Made by a program: the position numbers and the translations under genes. The notes under the pieces are model-generated. The model was not told where the DNA came from, searched no databases, and saw only the letters and a list, made by a program, of their open reading frames with translations. Of a DNA stretch of 64,000 nt, positions 51,511 to 61,331 are shown piece after piece (positions within the stretch are counted from its first letter, which is position 1; each line of letters starts with the position of its first letter). Origin of the DNA: an uncultured Tateyamaria sp. (GTDB lineage: Bacteria; Pseudomonadota; Alphaproteobacteria; Rhodobacterales; Rhodobacteraceae); the NCBI RefSeq assembly GCF_947487805.1, contig NZ_CANKXW010000001.1:1061580-1125579 (forward strand). The letters are read 5' to 3'.

Positions 51511-51534
51511 TTGAAACTGTCACGGGAGGACACA

Positions 51535-52581
51535 ATGAAAACCACGATTGCAGCTTGGGTGCTGGGTGCGATGGCCACCACGGCCAGCGCAGAGACCTTT
51601 GATCTGACGATGGCTTCCAGCCATCCGACGGTTTTGCCTTGGGTCGGGCAGTTGTCCACATTGGTTGTTGCCGAAACCAACACGCGCCTCGAGGCGATGG
51701 GATCATCGGACCGCGTCACCTGGACCGAAGCCTATGGCGGATCGCTCTATGGGTTCAAGGACACGCTGGAGGCCGTGGGCGACGGCCTAACCGATGCAGG
51801 CTGGGTCGGGACGCTTTGGGAGGGATCCAAGATGCCCTTGCAGAACGTGACCTATTTCACGCCATTCGTGTCGGACGACCTTGTCACAACGCTTCAGATC
51901 ATGAACGACTTGCACCGCGAGGTGCCTGAATTGCAGGCCGCTTGGGATGACCAGAACGTGGTCTTTCTGGGGGCGAGCGGGGTCGAAACCTATCACCTGA
52001 TGACGAATTTTCCGGTGAACTCGATTGACGATCTGAAAGGGCGCAAGATCCTCGCACCGGGTCCGTCGGCGAACTGGATCAAACATCTGGGTGCCGTGCC
52101 GGTGAACGGGGCGCTGCCCACCTATTACAATCAGGTCCAGACCGGTGTGGCCGACGGGATGGTGATCATCCTGACCGGGGCCTTTCCGAACAAGCACTAC
52201 GAGGTCGCCCCCTATGTCACACTGGTTGGTATGGGCGCGCAGATGACCGGGGGCCTCGGGATCAACAAGGATGTCTGGGAGGATCTGTCGGACGATGTCC
52301 GGCAGGTTCTCAGCGAACTTGGCGAAGAGTACACGGTTGCCCATGCCAGAGAGGTGATGGCGCGCTATGACACCTTCCTTGCGAAACTGCCGGAAGTTGG
52401 CGCGACCGTGACCGAACTGCCTGCGTCCGACATCGCGACATGGGCCGAAACGCTGCCCAATCTCGCCGGAGAATGGGTGGATGCAAACCAGTCCGACGGG
52501 GCCGAGGCGGTACTGGCCGCATATATGGACAAGGTCCGTGCCGCAGGTCTGGATGCGCGCGTGGATTGGGCCTCGAAGTGA
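51535..52581 (+). CDS. TRAP transporter DctP-type substrate-binding protein
   Basis: A 348-residue periplasmic binding protein. It has a signal peptide (TTIAAWVLGAMATTASAETF) and DctP features such as FDLTMASSHPTVLPW, GVETYHLMTNFPVNSIDDLK and the substrate motif PTYYNQVQTGVADGMVI. GGGAGG precedes the ATG at 51535. It shares an operon with the hydroxyquinol genes, so the ligand may be an aromatic acid or its precursor. Unlike the other importer operons here, no hairpin follows it. Confidence 0.93.
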   Translation: MKTTIAAWVLGAMATTASAETFDLTMASSHPTVLPWVGQLSTLVVAETNTRLEAMGSSDRVTWTEAYGGSLYGFKDTLEAVGDGLTDAGWVGTLWEGSKMPLQNVTYFTPFVSDDLVTTLQIMNDLHREVPELQAAWDDQNVVFLGASGVETYHLMTNFPVNSIDDLKGRKILAPGPSANWIKHLGAVPVNGALPTYYNQVQTGVADGMVIILTGAFPNKHYEVAPYVTLVGMGAQMTGGLGINKDVWEDLSDDVRQVLSELGEEYTVAHAREVMARYDTFLAKLPEVGATVTELPASDIATWAETLPNLAGEWVDANQSDGAEAVLAAYMDKVRAAGLDARVDWASK

Positions 52582-52603
52582 CTTGATCGCCGGGAGGCAT
52601 GCC

Positions 52604-54562
52604 ATGTTGACGTCTGCATCGTTTCGCCATGGAACACATCAAACGGTAAGCGCTGTTTCCGCGCTTACCGGACTTGTCAGCGGCGCGGCGTCGATCTGGA
52701 TTTTCTGCCTGATGCTTCTGATTTGCGCAGACATCATCGGGCGCTCTGTTTTTAACGCACCGGTCCAGGGCGTGGCCGAAATTGTGGCCAATTCGATTGT
52801 GGCGATCGTTTTTCTTCAGGCTGCACATGCTCTGATGTCCGGGCGCATGACCCGCACCGACATCCTTGCCGGCTGGCTCGAGGACGAACGTCCCTTCGCA
52901 GCATCGGCCATGCGGGTTCTGTTTCACCTTGCCGGGGTCGCCGTCTTTGCCCTGATCGCGCAGGGAACCTGGCCCAAGTTGGTCGATGCCTGGGTCGAAG
53001 GCGAGTTTTTTGGCGCGCAGGGCGTGTTCACCGCCCCGGTCTGGCCGATCAAGGCCTGCCTTTTCCTTGGCGCGATGCTGACAGCGCTGGCATTTGCGGT
53101 TCAGGCGCTCAACGACGTCAAGGACATGGTGAATTCGGGCCGTGTGTCTCCGTTGAGGATCCGGCATTCGGTCGTGTTGAAGCCCAAGGGGTGGCCCTTT
53201 CTGATCGCGTTCCTCGCGCTCTTGGTCATTGGTTACGGCATTTTCTGGGCGGATCTGGGTCGGGTCGAAATCGGCATCGTTGCCATCGGTTTCATGCTGC
53301 TTTTGATATTTTCCGGGGCACATATTGCCGTTGTCCTGATCTTGCTCAGCTTTCTCGGGATCTGGCTGATCCGGGACAATCCGAAGGTTGCGATGCGGTC
53401 GCTTGCTCTGGCTGCGGATGGGGCCATCAACCGCTATCTGTTCGGGGTTGTGCCGCTGTTCGTGCTGATGGGCCTGATCGTTGATGCGGCGGATATCGGG
53501 CGCGATGCCTACCGGGTTGCCGCGTGGCTTTTGCAACGGATCCGGGGCGGCCTGGGCATTGCAACAGTGGCTGCAAACGCGGTCTTTGCGTCCATCACGG
53601 GGATCTCGATTGCCTCCGCCGCAGTGTTCTCGCGCGTGGCGGTGCCGCAGATGGTGGCAAACGGGTATAACAACCGCTTTGCCTTGGGGGTCGTGGCCGG
53701 GTCCTCGGTGCTGGGGATGCTGATCCCGCCCAGCCTGTTGTTGATCATATATGGCGTTCTGGCCGAGCAATCGGTCGGCGCGCTGTTCCTTGCGGCGATT
53801 GTGCCGGGGGGTATCCTTGCCTTTGTCTTCGGCTTCGGGATTTACCTGATGGCGGTTCTGCGCCCCCGGTCAGTGATGCAATCGGACCGACCGATTGCGA
53901 TTGAAGGCGAAACTTGGGGCACGGCGGTGCAAAAACTGCTGCCCATTGCGGCGTTGGTCGTGATTGTGCTGGGAGGAATCTACTCGGGCTTTTTCACGCC
54001 CACCGAAGCGGGGGCGGCGGGGGCGGCTGCCGCGATACTCGTGGCGCTTGTGAAGGGCAGCCTGACATGGCGCAAGTTCTGGCAGGTGCTGGTGGATACA
54101 GGGCTGGTCTCGGTGTCCATCCTGATGCTCATCATCGCGGCGTCGATGTATTCACGTATGTTGACGCTTTCGACCATTCCGCAGGAAACAACCCAGTTCT
54201 TTGCCGGAATGGGGCTCGGTCTGATGGGATTCATGATGATCTACCTCGTGCTCGTCATCATCATGGGCATGATCCTCGACAGCACATCGATCATGTTGAT
54301 CCTACTGCCGCTGTGCCTGCCAATCGTGACGGAACTTGGCGGGGACCTGATCTGGTTTGGCATCGTCACTGTCATTGCCGTCGAAATCGGCCTGCTGACT
54401 CCGCCTTTCGGGCTGACAGTTTATGTGGTGAAGGCGACAATCGCAGACCGCAACACCACGCTGGGCGACATTTTTGCTGGGACATTTCCCTTTGTCGTCA
54501 TGATGACCATCGTGACATTGCTTTTGACTTTTATGCCCGCGCTGAGCTTGGTCTTTGAATAG
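52604..54562 (+). CDS. TRAP transporter fused permease (DctQM)
   Basis: A 652-residue protein with the small permease (about residues 1-170, with IIGRSVFNAPVQGVAEIVAN) fused to the large 12-helix permease. Signatures of the large part are FASITGISIASAAVFSRVAV, GMILDSTSIMLILLPLCLP and IGLLTPPFGLTVYVVK. GGGAGG precedes the ATG at 52604. It is the last gene of the hydroxyquinol-TRAP operon and meets the convergent cyclase gene 14 bases on. Confidence 0.93.
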   Translation: MLTSASFRHGTHQTVSAVSALTGLVSGAASIWIFCLMLLICADIIGRSVFNAPVQGVAEIVANSIVAIVFLQAAHALMSGRMTRTDILAGWLEDERPFAASAMRVLFHLAGVAVFALIAQGTWPKLVDAWVEGEFFGAQGVFTAPVWPIKACLFLGAMLTALAFAVQALNDVKDMVNSGRVSPLRIRHSVVLKPKGWPFLIAFLALLVIGYGIFWADLGRVEIGIVAIGFMLLLIFSGAHIAVVLILLSFLGIWLIRDNPKVAMRSLALAADGAINRYLFGVVPLFVLMGLIVDAADIGRDAYRVAAWLLQRIRGGLGIATVAANAVFASITGISIASAAVFSRVAVPQMVANGYNNRFALGVVAGSSVLGMLIPPSLLLIIYGVLAEQSVGALFLAAIVPGGILAFVFGFGIYLMAVLRPRSVMQSDRPIAIEGETWGTAVQKLLPIAALVVIVLGGIYSGFFTPTEAGAAGAAAAILVALVKGSLTWRKFWQVLVDTGLVSVSILMLIIAASMYSRMLTLSTIPQETTQFFAGMGLGLMGFMMIYLVLVIIMGMILDSTSIMLILLPLCLPIVTELGGDLIWFGIVTVIAVEIGLLTPPFGLTVYVVKATIADRNTTLGDIFAGTFPFVVMMTIVTLLLTFMPALSLVFE

Positions 54563-54576
54563 AGTGTGCGGGTCCG

Positions 54577-57171
54577 TCACACATCGTGGACGAGCTTGAA
54601 CACCTCGACAGGTTCGCGGATGCCCTTGAGTGTCAGGTCTCCCTTGCTCTCGACGCTATACGCGTCCTCAACCGCGATGCCCGCGCGCGTGCTGAGCAGG
54701 ATCTCTCCATCTTCCGCCTCGTCGCACAGGCGTGACGCGAGGTTGATCGCCGTTCCGGACGCGGTGTAGTCAAAGCGGCCCTCGAACCCCACAAGCCCCA
54801 CGGTGGCGTAGCCAAGCGAGACACCAACGCCGAACCCAAGCCGATGGCCAAGTCGTTTCCACGCCGCGCACAACTCGACCATACGCGCGCGCATTGCAAT
54901 TGCCAGCCGCACCGCGTCGCCCGCTGGGTCATCGCAGGGGATGGGGTCATTGAACAGCACCATCACCCCATCGCCCATTCGCAAGTCGACACCGGCGCCA
55001 TGCTGGTTGATCAACTTGCCCATCTCTTCGTGATAGGTTTGCAGCACTTCGATGGTCTCTTCGGGCTCTGCGGTTTCGCAGAACGCGGTGAACCCCCGAA
55101 TGTCGCAGAACAGAACCCCCAAGAGGGCGCGGTGACTTTGCAGCATCTGTTCCGACCCTGACGACACGATCGTGTCGGCAACCGCAGAGGGCAGAAAGCG
55201 TTTCAACCGCCCCATCCGCTCAATCTCGACCACCTGTTCATCAACCTTGACGGCAAGCGATGTGTTGAGCTCCAGCACCTCGGCGGTGCGCGCCTGTAGA
55301 TCATTGAATTGGCGCACATTCTCCATCGCGATAACGGCCTGGGCGGCGAATGTCTCCACCAACTCGATTTCGTCTGGCGTATAGGGCTTCACCTCCTTGC
55401 GGAACAGCACGAGGACACCTTCGCCGCCATCGGGCGTCATCAGGGGCACAAACAGGTTGGTGCGGATACCCGTGTCGTCCACGACGGACGTATAGTGCGA
55501 TACACCCCTGCGATACCCATCGGTGTCGGCCATATCCGGCACATGGACAACCTCACCGGAGATGATCGCCTTGGCCGCCATGGAGATTGCCGGGTCCATA
55601 GTCACTTCACCGCGCGCGTAGAGATCAAGTGTTGCGGGACTGACACCCCGTGAGACGGCCATGCGCTGATGCGTATCGCCCTGCGCGCCCAGCGTCAGCG
55701 CGCCGGCGCTCGCCCCGCACAGATCAATGGCGTTGCGCAGAATCGTGTCAAAGACAGGCTGCGCATCATCACGGTTCTGATTGATGGCTTGCAGGATTTC
55801 CCGTGTCGCGGCCTCCCGATCCAGACGTTTTCTCAGGTTTCGAAACTGTCGTACGTTTTCAAGGGCAATGACGGCCTGGGTTGCGAAGGTCTCAACCAGT
55901 GCAATCTGTTCGTCCGTATAGGGCCGTACCTCGTGACGGAAGATGATGAAACAGCCGATGCCGACCCCGTCCCGAATGAGCGGCACAAACAGGTTGGTGC
56001 GAATGCCCTGCACATCGCACAGCTCGACCACGTTGGGCACGCCGGACCGGTATTGATCCGTGTCCATCATGTTGTGCAGATGGACGGGCCGTTTTTCGAC
56101 GATGGCTTGCGCGGCAAAGGATTTCTCGGGGTCCATGGGTACGCGGCCCTGACCATAATAGTCCTCTGTGCTTTGCAATGCGCCATGGTGGGCGATCATG
56201 GTCTGGGTGTCGTCCGTGGCGCGGCCGAGGATCAAAGCGGCAAAAGGGGCGTCACAGAGTTTGCGCGCATTGCCGAGGATTGCATCGAACACCGGCCCTT
56301 CGTCATCGCTGGACGAGGCGATGGCGTTCAGAATTTCGCGGGACGCGGCGGCGCGGGCCAGGCGTGCCTCCATTTCCGTGATGTGGAGCGAGTTCTCGAT
56401 TGCGATCGCCGCCTGATCCGCAAAGGCCTGTGCCAATTCCAGAGCGCGGTCATTGAATGGATGCACACGGGTCCGGTACACGCTGAAGACCCCGATCAGC
56501 CGACCACCCGCCATCATCGGGATGGCGGCCAGCGAACGCGCATGGCCGTATTTCACGGTCGCAAATCGTAGTGGGTTGGCGTCATGGACCACGTCTTCGG
56601 CGTTGACGTCGACCACGCTGACAGGTTTACGGGTTCGGGCTGCACGACCGACGGCGGTGTCGGGGCCGGGATTGAAGGTCCCTTGCGCGGAAAGCCATTC
56701 CGCGAAGGGTGCACTGATATTGCTGGAGCGCATCTCGGTGAATGCGAAGTCACCATGGTGTTCCATGAGGATACCGAACTCGGCTTCGCAGATTTCGAGC
56801 GCCTGTTCCAGCACCTCGTCGATGACCTCGTCGAGGTTGCGACTGCTCTCGTTGATGATCCGCAAAACGCGCATCATCGCGCGTTCCCGGCGCATGGCCT
56901 CGTCCAGCTCAAGCGCCAGATCGGCCACCACGGCGGTTGTGTCCTGTTCCGCAGGTGATGAGCCATCCGGATCGGTCAGGACCTGCGCCAACGCGATTTT
57001 CGACGTCACATTCAACTTGCCATATACGGTGCGCAAGTGAGACCGGACAGTCGTAGGGGAAATGCCAAGGTCACGCGCGATGACCTTGTAGCTGGCCCCG
57101 TCGGCATAGGCGGCAGCCACTTCGGCCTCTCGTTTTGACAGTGTTTCAATCGATTGCGCCGTGTCCGACAT
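54577..57171 (-). CDS. LuxR-type HTH, three GAF domains and class III nucleotide cyclase
   Basis: An 864-residue protein with an unusual order. Residues 10-65 are a LuxR/GerE HTH (SKREAEVAAAYADGASYKVI, then VRSHLRTVYGKLNVTSK). Three GAF domains follow (about 90-260, 270-430, 440-610), each ending in an AIENxx helix; the second and third resemble each other. A helical linker leads to a class III cyclase (about 685-864): metal Asp690 in FCDIRGFT and Asp734 in MGDGVM, and Asn810/Arg814 in INLASR. The usual ATP-specifying Lys position is Leu with Arg beside it. GAGG 5 bases before the ATG at 57171 supports the start. No membrane segment. Confidence 0.88.
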   Translation of the reverse strand: MSDTAQSIETLSKREAEVAAAYADGASYKVIARDLGISPTTVRSHLRTVYGKLNVTSKIALAQVLTDPDGSSPAEQDTTAVVADLALELDEAMRRERAMMRVLRIINESSRNLDEVIDEVLEQALEICEAEFGILMEHHGDFAFTEMRSSNISAPFAEWLSAQGTFNPGPDTAVGRAARTRKPVSVVDVNAEDVVHDANPLRFATVKYGHARSLAAIPMMAGGRLIGVFSVYRTRVHPFNDRALELAQAFADQAAIAIENSLHITEMEARLARAAASREILNAIASSSDDEGPVFDAILGNARKLCDAPFAALILGRATDDTQTMIAHHGALQSTEDYYGQGRVPMDPEKSFAAQAIVEKRPVHLHNMMDTDQYRSGVPNVVELCDVQGIRTNLFVPLIRDGVGIGCFIIFRHEVRPYTDEQIALVETFATQAVIALENVRQFRNLRKRLDREAATREILQAINQNRDDAQPVFDTILRNAIDLCGASAGALTLGAQGDTHQRMAVSRGVSPATLDLYARGEVTMDPAISMAAKAIISGEVVHVPDMADTDGYRRGVSHYTSVVDDTGIRTNLFVPLMTPDGGEGVLVLFRKEVKPYTPDEIELVETFAAQAVIAMENVRQFNDLQARTAEVLELNTSLAVKVDEQVVEIERMGRLKRFLPSAVADTIVSSGSEQMLQSHRALLGVLFCDIRGFTAFCETAEPEETIEVLQTYHEEMGKLINQHGAGVDLRMGDGVMVLFNDPIPCDDPAGDAVRLAIAMRARMVELCAAWKRLGHRLGFGVGVSLGYATVGLVGFEGRFDYTASGTAINLASRLCDEAEDGEILLSTRAGIAVEDAYSVESKGDLTLKGIREPVEVFKLVHDV

Positions 57172-57325
57172 AATATCCTCGGGCCAATGTAGGGGGACCA
57201 TACCCTACATCGCTCCTGCATCAATTGGTTCATTTGAACGATATTGCGACGCGACGCCGTTGCCTAATTTGGATGCAGGACGCCGCGGGAATTGTCCCCG
57301 GCGCCACAGCACAGGAGCTGACACC

Positions 57326-57739
57326 ATGACCATCACAGAAACAGCACGCGCCTTCTTCGAAGCTTGTGAGACCGGACAGGGCTGGGATGCCTGCGCCGCC
57401 TATTGCAGCGAGGATGCAGGTTTCGCATGTCAGTCAGGGGCGCTGGCCGACACGCACACGCTGGCGGCCTATGCCGAATGGATGAAAGGCCTGCTAACGC
57501 CCATCCCGGACGGCCGCTATGAATTGAAAGGGTTCGCCTGCGACGAAGACCGGGGCACCGTTCTGGCCTTTGCCGTGTTCCATGGCACCCAAACCGGTCC
57601 CGGCGGCCCCGTCGATCCGACGGGCGCGACTGTGGCATCGGATTATGTCTACGCGATGGAGTTTGCGGGCGGAAAGATCACCCACATGACCAAGGTCTGG
57701 AATGACGGCCACGCGCTAGCGCAGCTTGGCTGGGCGTAG
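57326..57739 (+). CDS. Nuclear transport factor 2-like (SnoaL-type) protein
   Basis: A 137-residue protein with the NTF2-like cone fold, as judged from TARAFFEACETGQGWDACAA and the C-terminal YVYAMEFAGGKITHMTKVWN. Family members are small isomerases, cyclases or ligand binders. AGGAG lies 7 bases before the ATG. It is divergent from the cyclase gene across 155 bases and ends in a clear terminator. The function is unknown; the cyclase protein might regulate it. Confidence 0.82.
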   Translation: MTITETARAFFEACETGQGWDACAAYCSEDAGFACQSGALADTHTLAAYAEWMKGLLTPIPDGRYELKGFACDEDRGTVLAFAVFHGTQTGPGGPVDPTGATVASDYVYAMEFAGGKITHMTKVWNDGHALAQLGWA

Positions 57740-57903: not shown

Positions 57904-58425
57904 ATGAACGAGCAAGATATCCCCAAGCGCCGGATTGTTTCATCACGTCACTTGGCCGACGGCGACAACTGGCAAGCCTCGGAAATAGAGTACGGGATGA
58001 TCATTGCCTATAACGCGTTTTCCCGTTGGATGACGCGGTGCATGTCGGCGGCAGGTAACACGGATCTGACGCCGCTGGAAATTCTGGTGCTGCACAACAC
58101 GAACCACCGTGGCCGTGATAAACGGTTGGCGGACATCTGTTTTCTGTTGAATATCGAAGACACGCACACCGTAAATTATGCCCTGCGCAAGCTGATGAAG
58201 ATGGAGCTTCTTGTCTCGGAAAAGCGAGGCAAGGAAGTGTTTTACCGGACGTCCCCGACCGGGGAGGCGCTGTGCGACGCGTACCGCGAGGTGCGCGAGC
58301 GTTGTTTTCTGGACGGTTTGTCCCGCCTGGACATGACCGGCGACGAGATGCGCGAGATCGCCGCCAACCTGCGCTCCCTGTCTGGCCAGTATGATCAGGC
58401 CAGCAGGGCCGCAGCGTCGCTTTAG
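57904..58425 (+). CDS. MarR-like winged-helix regulator
   Basis: A 173-residue winged-helix protein. DLTPLEILVLHNTNHRGRDK leads into the recognition part LADICFLLNIEDTHTVNYAL, and the wing is LLVSEKRGKEVFYRTSPTG. GAGGAAATTCGACC before the ATG holds the ribosome binding site. It is convergent with the TRAP operon; the stops overlap. It probably controls the TRAP and hydantoinase genes nearby, as such regulators often do. Confidence 0.86.
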   Translation: MNEQDIPKRRIVSSRHLADGDNWQASEIEYGMIIAYNAFSRWMTRCMSAAGNTDLTPLEILVLHNTNHRGRDKRLADICFLLNIEDTHTVNYALRKLMKMELLVSEKRGKEVFYRTSPTGEALCDAYREVRERCFLDGLSRLDMTGDEMREIAANLRSLSGQYDQASRAAASL

Positions 58426-59723
58426 CGCGCGATGTAGGTTGGCAGAAAGGTGACGATCTGTGGAAACAGGCAGATCAGCAGGACCCCAAGCAAAAGTAGC
58501 AAAAAGAACGGGAACGCTGCTTTTGCGATCCGCAGGATGTCGATCCCGGTCAGACCCTGAATGACAAACAGGTTGAAGCCCACGGGCGGTGTGATCTGGC
58601 TCATCTCGACCACGATCACCAGGTAGATGCCAAACCAGATCGGGTCGATCCCGACGGCTGACACCATCGGCATGATGATGGACGTGGTCAGAACGATGAC
58701 CGAAATGCCGTCCAGAAAGCAGCCGAGGATGATGAAGAAGACCGTCAGGGCGACCAGCAGGGCGGCGACCGACAGGTTCATGTCAGAAATCCACGACGCG
58801 AGGTTGCGCGGCAACCCGGTAAAGCCCATGGCCACCGACAGGAACGCAGCCCCCAGCAGGATCAATGCGATCATGCAGGACGTGCGTGTCGCCGACATCA
58901 CCGCCTCGCCAAACAGTTTCCAGCTGAACGCCCCCGATGTCCACGCAAGGATGGTTGCAAGGACAACACCCAGAGCGGCCGCGTCGGTGGGGGATGCAAG
59001 CCCGCCATAGATGGATCCGATGACGCCGCCGATCAGCAGCGCCACGGGGATCAACCGCCGCGACGCACGGAATTTTTCGCGCAGGGTGAATGTCTCGTTT
59101 ATTGCCGGGGTCAGAGCAGGGTTCATCCATGCCCGAACCGCGACATAGCCTGCAAACAGCGTCATCAGCATGATGCCGGGAATGATGGCAGCGATGAACA
59201 GGCGGGCAATCGATTGCTCTGTGGCGACCCCGTATACGATCAGGATGATCGAAGGCGGGATCAGCAGCCCCAGCGTCGCGGACCCCGCCAGCGTGCCGAG
59301 GATCAGGCTTTCCGGGTAGCCACGTTTTGTCAGCTCCGGCACCGACATGCGCCCGATCGTTGCGGCCGTCGCGGCCGAGGATCCGGAAACGGCGGCAAAG
59401 ATGGCGCAGCCAAAGACGTTCACATGCAACAGGCGCCCCGGCGCGCGGCTCAGCCATGGGACAAGCCCGGTGAACATATCGTCGCTCATCCGTGACCTGA
59501 GCAGGATTTCCCCCATCAAGATGAAAAGCGGCAGAGCGGTCAGCGCCCAGCTGTAGGAATGCCCCCAGAAGGTCGCCGCCAGAACGAGGCCCGACGGCGC
59601 GTTGGAAAAGAAGACAAGACCGGCCAAACCGACCAGAGACAGCGAAATCGCCACCCAGACACCGCTGGCCAGCAAAAAGAACAAGAGCCCCAAAAGGACC
59701 AGGCCAATCATCGGATCAGACAT
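58422..59723 (-). CDS. TRAP transporter large permease, DctM
   Basis: A 433-residue 12-helix permease. Signatures are GCAIFAAVSGSSAATAATIG, GTLAGSATLGLLIPPSIILI and IGIYLVIVVEMSQITPP-like text near the end (FGIYLVIVVEMSQITPPVGF). It starts 3 bases past the dctQ stop, with GAGG as ribosome binding site, and is the last gene of the dctPQM operon. Confidence 0.94.
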   Translation of the reverse strand: MSDPMIGLVLLGLLFFLLASGVWVAISLSLVGLAGLVFFSNAPSGLVLAATFWGHSYSWALTALPLFILMGEILLRSRMSDDMFTGLVPWLSRAPGRLLHVNVFGCAIFAAVSGSSAATAATIGRMSVPELTKRGYPESLILGTLAGSATLGLLIPPSIILIVYGVATEQSIARLFIAAIIPGIMLMTLFAGYVAVRAWMNPALTPAINETFTLREKFRASRRLIPVALLIGGVIGSIYGGLASPTDAAALGVVLATILAWTSGAFSWKLFGEAVMSATRTSCMIALILLGAAFLSVAMGFTGLPRNLASWISDMNLSVAALLVALTVFFIILGCFLDGISVIVLTTSIIMPMVSAVGIDPIWFGIYLVIVVEMSQITPPVGFNLFVIQGLTGIDILRIAKAAFPFFLLLLLGVLLICLFPQIVTFLPTYIAR

Positions 59724-59726
59724 CGA

Positions 59727-60251
59727 TCAAACCTCGCCGGGGCTGGACAGGATCGGCTTTCGCGCCGACACCAACTCACAAAGGGTATGGAGGATTGCGA
59801 CCAGCAACAGGGCGATGCCAAAGGTGGCCACGCTTTGTGGGATCCACAGCGGGACAGGGATGATGCCGTTGGACACATCACCATAGTGCACGCTTTCTCG
59901 GACCAGGTCGGCCATGAAATAGGCCGCATAACCAACCAGTCCTGCCGCGACTGCCAGTACAAAGACTTCGGCGGCAAATTGCGCCGATTGCGGCAACCGC
60001 GAAACAACGAGGTTCACCCGAATATGCCCGCCCGCGCGCAACGTGTGCGCCATGGCAAGGAATGTTGCGCCTGCCAGCATGAACCCCGAGAAATCGGCGT
60101 AGGATGGAATGGTGGATGGCAAGACACCCGGTGCGATCCGGCCAAACGCGTTCAGACAAATCTGCGCCGAGATCAGCAGGCAGATGCACAAGATCAGCCC
60201 CCCAGCGATCATGCCGCACAGATCATAGAGTTTTTGAAATCGGCGAGACAT
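59727..60251 (-). CDS. TRAP transporter small permease, DctQ
   Basis: A 174-residue protein with four membrane segments (LCGMIAGGLILCICLLISAQ first) and the DctQ family motif region around FGRIAPGVLPSTIPSYADFS. It lies between dctP and dctM. A 10-bp hairpin lies in the 65-base gap before it. Confidence 0.9.
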   Translation of the reverse strand: MSRRFQKLYDLCGMIAGGLILCICLLISAQICLNAFGRIAPGVLPSTIPSYADFSGFMLAGATFLAMAHTLRAGGHIRVNLVVSRLPQSAQFAAEVFVLAVAAGLVGYAAYFMADLVRESVHYGDVSNGIIPVPLWIPQSVATFGIALLLVAILHTLCELVSARKPILSSPGEV

Positions 60252-60277
60252 TGCGCTGGCGTCCTTTGGTAGAAAAG

Positions 60278-60305
60278 TGGCCGGTCACAGATGCATGACC
60301 GGCCA
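60278..60305 (-). terminator. Hairpin attenuator between dctP and dctQ
   Basis: Read on the minus strand, TGGCCGGTCA, an 8-base loop and TGACCGGCCA are followed by CTTTTC. The stem is a perfect 10 bp and begins 11 bases past the dctP stop. It resembles an intrinsic terminator placed inside the operon, so partial termination would limit permease synthesis. Confidence 0.7.
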
Positions 60306-60316
60306 GTTCAGGGAGG

Positions 60317-61279
60317 TTATTGGCTGTTGTAGGCGTTCAGCACCGCGCGGGCGCTGTCGGAGGCCGCGGCATCCCATGTGCCCAGCATCGTTTCACTGAT
60401 ACCTTGCAGGCCCTCGATCAGAGCGGCGCTTGGTTCGTAGACGGTTATCCCGTTTTCGGCGAGTGCGGCCGTCATGCTCTCGGCTTCGGCGGCGGACATC
60501 TCCCAACCCCGGGTTTCGGCCGTGTCGGCTGCGGCGAGAACGGCGGCCTGCGTGTCAGCATCCAGCCTGTCGAACATGCGCTTGTTGATGACCACGATGT
60601 TCTTTGGCACCCATGCGTTGATCGGCGTGTAATGGGTCACGAAATCCCAAGCGGTCGAGTTCACGCCGGTGGAAGGCGAGGTGATCATCGCGTCAACCTG
60701 TCCGGTCGCAAACGCTTGCGGGATGTTTGAGGCCTCGATCTGTACCGGCGATGCCCCGGCCAGCGTTGCAAATTCTTCGAGGGCCGCATTGTAAGCGCGG
60801 AAACGCAGGCCGTTCAGATCGTCGACCTTGGCAATTTCGCCGTTGGTATAAAGACCCTGGGCAGGCCACGGGACGGAAAATAGCGGCATCAGGCCCTGTT
60901 CGGCCAGAAGCTCGGTGATGACCGGTTCCTGTGCGGCCCAAAGACGTTTGGCGTCTTCATAGCTCGTGGCGACGAAGGGTTGACTGTCGACACCATATGC
61001 AAGGTCTTCGTTGGACAGACGCGACAGAAAGAACTCGCCCAGCGGGACAGAGCGGTTGCGAATGGCGCCTTTGATTTCCGCATGGGGAAAGAGGGATCCG
61101 GCAGAATGAAGCGTGATGTCCAGACCGCCATCCGTGGCGGCGCGAACGTCATCGGCAAATTGCGCGATGTTCTGTGTGTGGAAGGTACTGTCGCCATATG
61201 GTGTCGGCATGTCCCAGTTCTGTGCAGCTGCCGCTGTTGCGCAGAAAAGCGCGGCTGCACCGAAGACGAAGTGTTTCAT
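60317..61279 (-). CDS. TRAP transporter DctP-type substrate-binding protein
   Basis: A 320-residue periplasmic binding protein with signal peptide (KHFVFGAAALFCATAAAAQN) and DctP features: GGLDITLHSAGSLFPHAEIK, NLRFRAY-like NGLRFRAYNAALEEFATLAG and TSPSTGVNSTAWDFVTHY. The ATG at 61279 has GGGAG 7 bases upstream. It is divergent from the 5-oxoprolinase-type gene, which points to an oxoproline, hydantoin or related N-acyl compound as ligand. Confidence 0.92.
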   Translation of the reverse strand: MKHFVFGAAALFCATAAAAQNWDMPTPYGDSTFHTQNIAQFADDVRAATDGGLDITLHSAGSLFPHAEIKGAIRNRSVPLGEFFLSRLSNEDLAYGVDSQPFVATSYEDAKRLWAAQEPVITELLAEQGLMPLFSVPWPAQGLYTNGEIAKVDDLNGLRFRAYNAALEEFATLAGASPVQIEASNIPQAFATGQVDAMITSPSTGVNSTAWDFVTHYTPINAWVPKNIVVINKRMFDRLDADTQAAVLAAADTAETRGWEMSAAEAESMTAALAENGITVYEPSAALIEGLQGISETMLGTWDAAASDSARAVLNAYNSQ

Positions 61280-61331
61280 AAGGAGGCTCCCCATCGTTGA
61301 AAATATGGACCGTTATAATTCGAATCCATTA

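Follow-up and report, generated by a model that had tools for sequence, protein, structure and literature searches.

The combination of a LuxR-type helix-turn-helix (HTH) and a class III nucleotide cyclase in one predicted-soluble protein is already known from the mycobacterial cyclase/LuxR (mclx) proteins Rv0386, Rv1358 and Rv2488c, in which the cyclase is N-terminal, an AAA/NB-ARC region lies in the middle, and the LuxR HTH is C-terminal. These proteins have been interpreted as cyclases and also as regulators that respond to nucleotides (PMC4452763, PMC3466318), their architecture is described as nearly mycobacterial-exclusive, and Rv0386 is reported to bind its substrate in an alternative mode. 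Tandem GAF domains before a class III cyclase are found in the Anabaena adenylyl cyclase CyaB2, in which the binding of cyclic AMP (cAMP) to the GAFs raises activity; no HTH is mentioned for it, a PAS domain lies before its cyclase, and an NKFDE motif is named for GAFs that bind cyclic nucleotides (cNMPs) (PMC4411481). Here we describe a gene at 54577..57171, on the minus strand of a 64,000-nucleotide stretch of DNA (the window) from an uncultured Tateyamaria sp. (contig NZ_CANKXW010000001.1), whose product has the order HTH - GAF1 - GAF2 - GAF3 - class III cyclase. This is the reverse of the mclx order, with GAFs instead of the AAA/NB-ARC region, and the protein is not an mclx. Literature searches in an open-access library listed no title or abstract opening that describes an HTH-GAF-cyclase in this order.

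We consider it fairly probable that the protein is a local one-component regulator of a divergent NTF2-like gene, with a tail that has been turned into a GAF-regulated nucleotide cyclase. The front of the protein (HTH and GAF1) would bind the 154-base gap between the two genes as a dimer and would control the NTF2-like gene and, by autoregulation, its own. GAF1 would sense a signal, and the extra GAFs would read either that signal or another one and thereby set the cyclase dimer. There would then be two outputs of one protein, a local one on the adjoining DNA and a diffusible one via the cyclic nucleotide. The fusion, its constraint, the synteny, and the repeated sites in the gap support this proposal at the level of sequence, and from them we infer dimer binding, control, sensing, and cyclic nucleotide output. 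A single protein may thus sense, bind DNA and make a cyclic nucleotide. If so, second-messenger output and a promoter-bound state are coupled in a single polypeptide, and the role of the HTH in cyclase/LuxR fusions becomes testable outside the mycobacteria.

The gene is a single open frame of 864 codons, encoding a protein of 864 residues, and this frame and its Pfam matches bear out the earlier sequence-only reading that a LuxR HTH, three GAFs and a class III cyclase lie in one protein. Residues 10-64 (56980..57144; all features of the gene are on the minus strand) match GerE with 55.4 bits against a curated cut-off of 23.5, as expected of a LuxR/FixJ-type HTH, and the recognition helix, SPTTVRSHLRT, is invariant across eight aligned proteins. 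A variable linker and helix (residues 65-110, 56842..56979; helix 79-108 in the structure model, of low confidence there) separate the HTH from GAF1 (residues 111-259, 56395..56841), the GAF that accompanies the HTH and that occurs with it elsewhere without a cyclase. All three GAF stretches are above the curated Pfam cut-offs. The limits of GAF2 (about residues 293-446, 55834..56295) are approximate, having been estimated from the model, as are those of GAF3 (about residues 470-618, 55318..55764), for which the best GAF_3 stretch is 519-618 and the start is taken from the model. A long helical linker (residues 619-683, 55123..55317; model helix 599-654, of low confidence beyond about 640) leads into the cyclase domain (residues 684-860, 54592..55122), which matches Guanylate_cyc with 67 bits against a cut-off of 21.9 and is a class III cyclase domain by this match, by similarity to the PDB chain 3r5g, and by the residue comparison described below. 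There is no membrane domain among the Pfam matches of the 864-residue protein. The protein shares its GerE HTH with the NarL/FixJ/LuxR response regulators, and its candidate sites show the 7-2-7 arrangement reported for NarL; it differs from them in its N-terminal HTH and in having no Response_reg match at E 0.001, and it does not class as a NarL/FixJ response regulator.

The start codon at 57171 that had been assigned earlier is retained, with a Shine-Dalgarno-like CGAGGA (57176..57181, minus strand) 4 bases before it. The longest possible open reading frame (ORF) starts at 57201, and this start is less favoured because it falls inside a conserved intergenic block.

A scan of genome contigs with the whole protein returned 47 loci (numbered here with the prefix L); the scan relies on short conserved peptides and is no census. 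HTH, GAFs and cyclase occur in one ORF in seven of the 47, namely L007, L008, L010 and L011 from Tateyamaria, L009, labelled Ruegeria pomeroyi, and the metagenome-assembled L031 and L034, labelled Rhodospirillaceae and Hyphomicrobiales. With the window and a further genome of the same genus (G017, locus L087), the HTH-GAF-cyclase order is present in nine genomes, and chance or an assembly artefact is ruled out by this recurrence of the order. The number of GAFs varies: two in L011, L031 and L034, three in the window and L008, four in L007 and L010, and five in L009 and L087. The front is thus continuous with a GAF(1-4)-cyclase in nine genomes, and such a GAF-cyclase occurs elsewhere without it. 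The matched cyclase ORF of the other 40 scan loci shows no match to the HTH (the cyclase ORFs of L021 and L030 begin at a contig edge, with their front out of view); GAF matches are present in 39 of these and absent from L053. These HTH-less GAF(n)-cyclases of Alphaproteobacteria (39/40 HTH-less loci, among L012-L053) resemble the window protein in belonging to the cyclase subfamily with Arg731 and in their variable GAF number. They differ in being without an HTH like that of the window protein and in their surroundings, none of the 40 HTH-less loci having an NTF2-like neighbour within the fetched 3.4-13.9 kb, in a search repeated with a working positive control.

Sampling of whole genomes with a profile of the HTH and GAF1 (A2) gave a similar picture, although the cut-offs differ between samples and the samples overlap. 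In the genus sample, six of 20 genomes have the cyclase fusion and three of 20 have an HTH-GAF without cyclase. An HTH-GAF was found in 21/394 genomes of the family sample, with the cyclase fusion in the window's own genome only, and in 19/292 of the order sample, with the fusion only in G000 and G017; the two matches among 385 genomes of the class sample were the own genome and one from another family with a 301-residue open frame. Within the genomes sampled, the fusion is rare and the cyclase-less front is more widely spread. Residues 1-268 have no match at E 1e-20 in a plasmid collection.

We identified 35 HTH-GAF loci without a cyclase (L060-L062, L093-L111, L120, and L126-L137). These stand-alone proteins (for example L061, L093 and L102) share with the window protein the HTH, GAF1, the divergent NTF2-like gene (in 30 of 35) and the half-sites in the gap, and differ in being mostly about 270 residues long and in having no cyclase. 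That of L103 has an internal stop. In L126 (1225-3492, plus strand) and L127 (1498-3489, plus strand) the HTH-GAF front has a TPR tail and no cyclase, and the divergent NTF2-like gene is kept. To judge from these frames, the HTH and first GAF are a separable, self-standing regulator unit in the relatives. The sequence-only reading had regarded an N-terminal HTH as unusual, and on this point it was mistaken: both the cyclase-less relatives and neighbouring HTH-TPR genes usually have the HTH at this end in the lineage, and the idea of an oddly placed HTH is ruled out. A side observation concerns those neighbours. Behind the cyclase-less HTH-GAF gene of L102, L105, L107-L110, L133, L134 and other loci comes a gene that overlaps or abuts it and has its own LuxR HTH, and TPRs follow this second HTH in the four loci examined by Pfam (L102, L105, L107 and L109).

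The NTF2-like (SnoaL-like) gene, the proposed target, lies at 57326..57739 (plus strand) and encodes 137 residues; its Pfam matches (SnoaL_2/SnoaL) were obtained on the longer frame 57161-57739. From this divergent start to that of the HTH gene we count 154 bases, one fewer than the 155 given earlier. A divergent NTF2-like homologue is found at a similar distance in 39 of 44 HTH-GAF loci, including all nine fused loci. The 30 cyclase-less cases comprise 3/3 of L060-L062, 16/19 of L093-L111, 0/1 for L120, and 11/12 of L126-L137.

A tree of 44 HTH-GAF1 sequences placed the nine cyclase-fused proteins in one clade (100/92), whose nearest kin were the TPR-fused pair (L126 and L127) and the stand-alone L093. 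The NTF2-like genes beside the fused genes were likewise one clade among 28 (99/100). The cyclase tree (49 sequences) had a different structure, with L031 and L034 grouping with the HTH-less L026 and L038 (97/96) and the other seven fused proteins elsewhere (98/98). On this tree, whose bootstrap had not settled, the approximately unbiased (AU) test rejected a single clade of the fused cyclase ends (p 0.0019). Because the HTH-GAF1 portions form one clade and the cyclase ends do not, these trees indicate either two separate joinings of the cyclase end or its exchange after joining. Recombination within the GAF repeats would be a plausible route.

The ratio of nonsynonymous to synonymous differences (pN/pS) among seven fused genes was 0.097 for the HTH (residues 1-66), 0.119 for GAF1, 0.096 for the cyclase domain, and 0.358 for linker residues 67-100, values that are rough because the synonymous differences, with means of 0.60-0.70, approach saturation. 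By these ratios the HTH and the cyclase are both under constraint.

The closest solved structures by sequence are CyaB (3r5g, E 1.1e-31), the bacteriophytochrome-cyclase chimera 6fht, and two other adenylate cyclases, 2w01 and 1wc0. In our alignment CyaB, which we take to be an adenylyl cyclase, pairs Lys with Thr at its purine positions. As had been noted from the sequence, the metal Asp and the Asn/Arg residues of the window protein (Asp690, Asp734, Asn810 and Arg814, within 54592..55122, minus strand) are intact, in keeping with a class III cyclase. We compared 48 family sequences, the window protein and one ORF from each of the 47 scan loci. Asp690, Asn810 and Arg814 are invariant in all 48, Asp734 is replaced once, by Asn in L011, and both metal Asp residues are retained with the Asn and Arg in seven of the eight fused sequences. 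The purine site consists of Leu730-Arg731 and Thr803, so the earlier description of Leu with a neighbouring Arg in place of the purine Lys also holds. At the first position the 48 sequences have His (34), Leu (7, including the window), Lys (4), Thr (2), or Gln (1), and never Glu; the second is Thr in 46. Residue 731 is Arg in all 48 and Phe, Tyr or Met in five other aligned cyclases. The invariant Arg beside a drifting purine-Lys position raises the question of base choice in this cyclase subfamily.

A study of Ma1120 assigns the choice of ATP to Lys and Asp; in guanylyl cyclases, by the same source, the first purine residue is Glu and the second is variable, Thr being one of its forms (PMC4215837). 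Because Leu730 is neither the Lys of adenylyl cyclases nor the Glu of guanylyl cyclases and is accompanied by Thr803, the window protein conforms to neither the ATP nor the GTP code. The fused L031 and L034 have an ordinary Lys at this position, as do their HTH-less sisters L026 and L038. Given these Lys-bearing sisters, and with the Leu form nested among His forms, we think that cAMP would be a likelier product than cGMP or mixed use. A reader for cAMP is plausible, since the window's own genome has ten cNMP-binding domain matches. Inspection of the GAF ends by eye showed no NKFDE motif; cAMP feedback through the GAFs as in CyaB2 may occur but is not indicated.

Several observations weigh against the main reading. 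The ATP-selecting purine Lys is lost in the window protein. L011 (4968-7058, plus strand), a fused protein that keeps its HTH, has Asn at the second metal Asp and Gln at the position of Arg692, so at least one genome may do without cyclase activity. The AlphaFold model, built on an alignment of eight sequences, has low confidence (predicted template-modelling score 0.36, with cyclase block means of 37-64 in the predicted local distance difference test), and no inference about the active site was drawn from it. The cyclase fold could be non-catalytic, a nucleotide-binding part that serves the HTH as sensor or dimeriser and yields little or no product; this reading is in print for Mclx2 and Mclx3, which are short of some canonical residues. 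We find this doubtful in view of the retained metal, Asn and Arg residues, the low pN/pS of the cyclase, and the ordinary Lys of L031 and L034. The cyclase of L011 does not look relaxed (pN/pS 0.105, against 0.077-0.124 in the other six). Cyclase activity of the predicted domain is likely on the residue evidence. L011 offers a natural test of the need for the cyclase and, with the front that occurs without cyclase and the cyclase that occurs without front, one of a set of natural controls.

A closer coupling of the two ends is conceivable, in which the protein sits on its operator and half-site occupancy governs the distant cyclase dimer, the promoter state being broadcast cell-wide as a cyclic nucleotide, or in which the product, made in place, feeds back on the promoter. 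We consider such a DNA-gated cyclase improbable.

The gap to the NTF2-like gene, where the sequence-only reading had suggested that DNA binding be sought first, contains a conserved block, TATCGTTCAAATGAACCAATTGATGCAGGAGCGATGTAGGGTATGGT (57197..57243, minus strand), which was found by alignment of the fused loci and which we propose as the operator region. Across its first 25 bases, TATCGTTCAAATGAACCAATTGATG, the seven closest fused loci agree fully in 20 of 25 columns. The block contains a proposed 16-bp operator dyad, TCGTTCA-AA-TGAACCA (7-2-7; 57226..57241, minus strand), and a half-site, TGCAGGA (57214..57220, minus strand). A dyad like TCGTTCA-NN-TGAACCA occurs in seven of the nine fused gaps; in L031 and L034 the right half is TGCAGTA. 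The commonest 7-mer in 19 cyclase-less intergenic regions is TACTGCA/TGCAGTA, present in 17 of them, and the best 7-mer reached at most eight loci in 200 rounds of shuffling. Counted on both strands, TGCAGKA occurs 39 times in the same 19 regions (500 shuffle rounds: mean 1.2, maximum 5), ten times in the nine fused gaps (mean 0.27, maximum 3), nine times in four loci without the NTF2-like gene (mean 0.2, maximum 2), and 25 times in 12 loci that were retrieved once the motif had been settled (mean 0.74, maximum 5). In L104 and L105 the sites TACTGCA-TC-TGCAGGA have the 7-2-7 layout. The paired fraction at the dyad axis was 0.75 in the nine fused sites, where axes shifted within 10 bases gave at most 0.67 (at +9; the next was 0.56), and 0.61 in the 20 of 23 cyclase-less loci with a site found, where shifted axes gave at most 0.44; in the cyclase-less loci the search expression caught two different sites. 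The 16-bp dyad is the sole exact copy in the 4.14 Mb genome, with no copy at one mismatch, and the only strong match of the whole 70-base block in the genome is to itself.

Against an operator of this kind, the loci are kin by descent, including the 12 later loci (two of them near-identical), and the shuffles therefore overstate the odds. Strict TGCAGKA is absent from L008, L093 and L126, and the fused clade has about one copy per gap. The dyad score is biased, the CA..TG search anchor having fixed two of the seven pairs. At three mismatches the operator pattern has seven matches in the window, a number reached by 18 of 100 shuffles, and at two mismatches it gives 39 rows in the genome (the site itself on both strands included) against 11 for a backward control, an excess that may represent further sites or an effect of base composition. 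The conserved block may also be partly promoter, despite a sigma-70 scan of 57100-57400 that found no promoter-like site. The presence of several half-site copies per gap does not follow from descent alone, and this is a stronger point than the shuffle odds.

The block could be entirely a divergent promoter pair read by another regulator, with the HTH protein acting elsewhere. Promoters probably lie between two start codons 154 bases apart, the sequence at 57197-57224, TTGATG-N16-TATGGT, weakly resembles one with 8 of 12 consensus letters, and the two-mismatch excess would fit. We nevertheless judge this distinctly improbable: the sigma-70 scan is empty, the dyad is unique in the genome at zero or one mismatch, and the repeated heptamers also lie upstream of HTH-GAF genes that have no NTF2-like gene. 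It is very unlikely that the protein is an ordinary GAF-cyclase whose vestigial or regulatory HTH no longer binds DNA, as the HTH-less majority of the scan loci (with L021 and L030 starting at a contig edge) might suggest, given the low pN/pS of the HTH, its invariant recognition helix, and the restriction of NTF2 synteny to the HTH form. DNA binding by the HTH protein, placed by the sequence-only reading in this gap, is well supported as a prediction from the recognition helix, the synteny in nine of nine fused loci, and the half-site block. If the main reading is true, the system comes with a defined neighbour gene and a candidate 16-bp operator.

Beyond the NTF2-like gene, no compared ORF cluster is common to three or more fused loci. 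In the window a winged-helix (HTH_27/MarR-like, by Pfam) gene lies downstream of it at 57904-58425 (plus strand), and TRAP-type transporter genes are found on either side of the system (51511-54562, plus strand, and 58422-61294, minus strand), with no cluster shared with the relatives. Among the cyclase-less loci that were widely fetched, a gene that reads as transporter-like from its sequence lies beyond the NTF2-like gene or replaces it in 10 of 11 (L085, L086, and L112-L119); it is not clustered in any fused locus.

A decayed multi-GAF gene, its frame broken by stops, lies beside a small cyclase gene on contig C3 of the window's own genome (L090, 364000-379191). Its open-frame relatives in the genus (L088, L089, L091 and L092) are giant GAF arrays of 1796-3013 residues, and that of L091 has eight GAFs and a hybrid histidine kinase and adjoins a receiver-cyclase.

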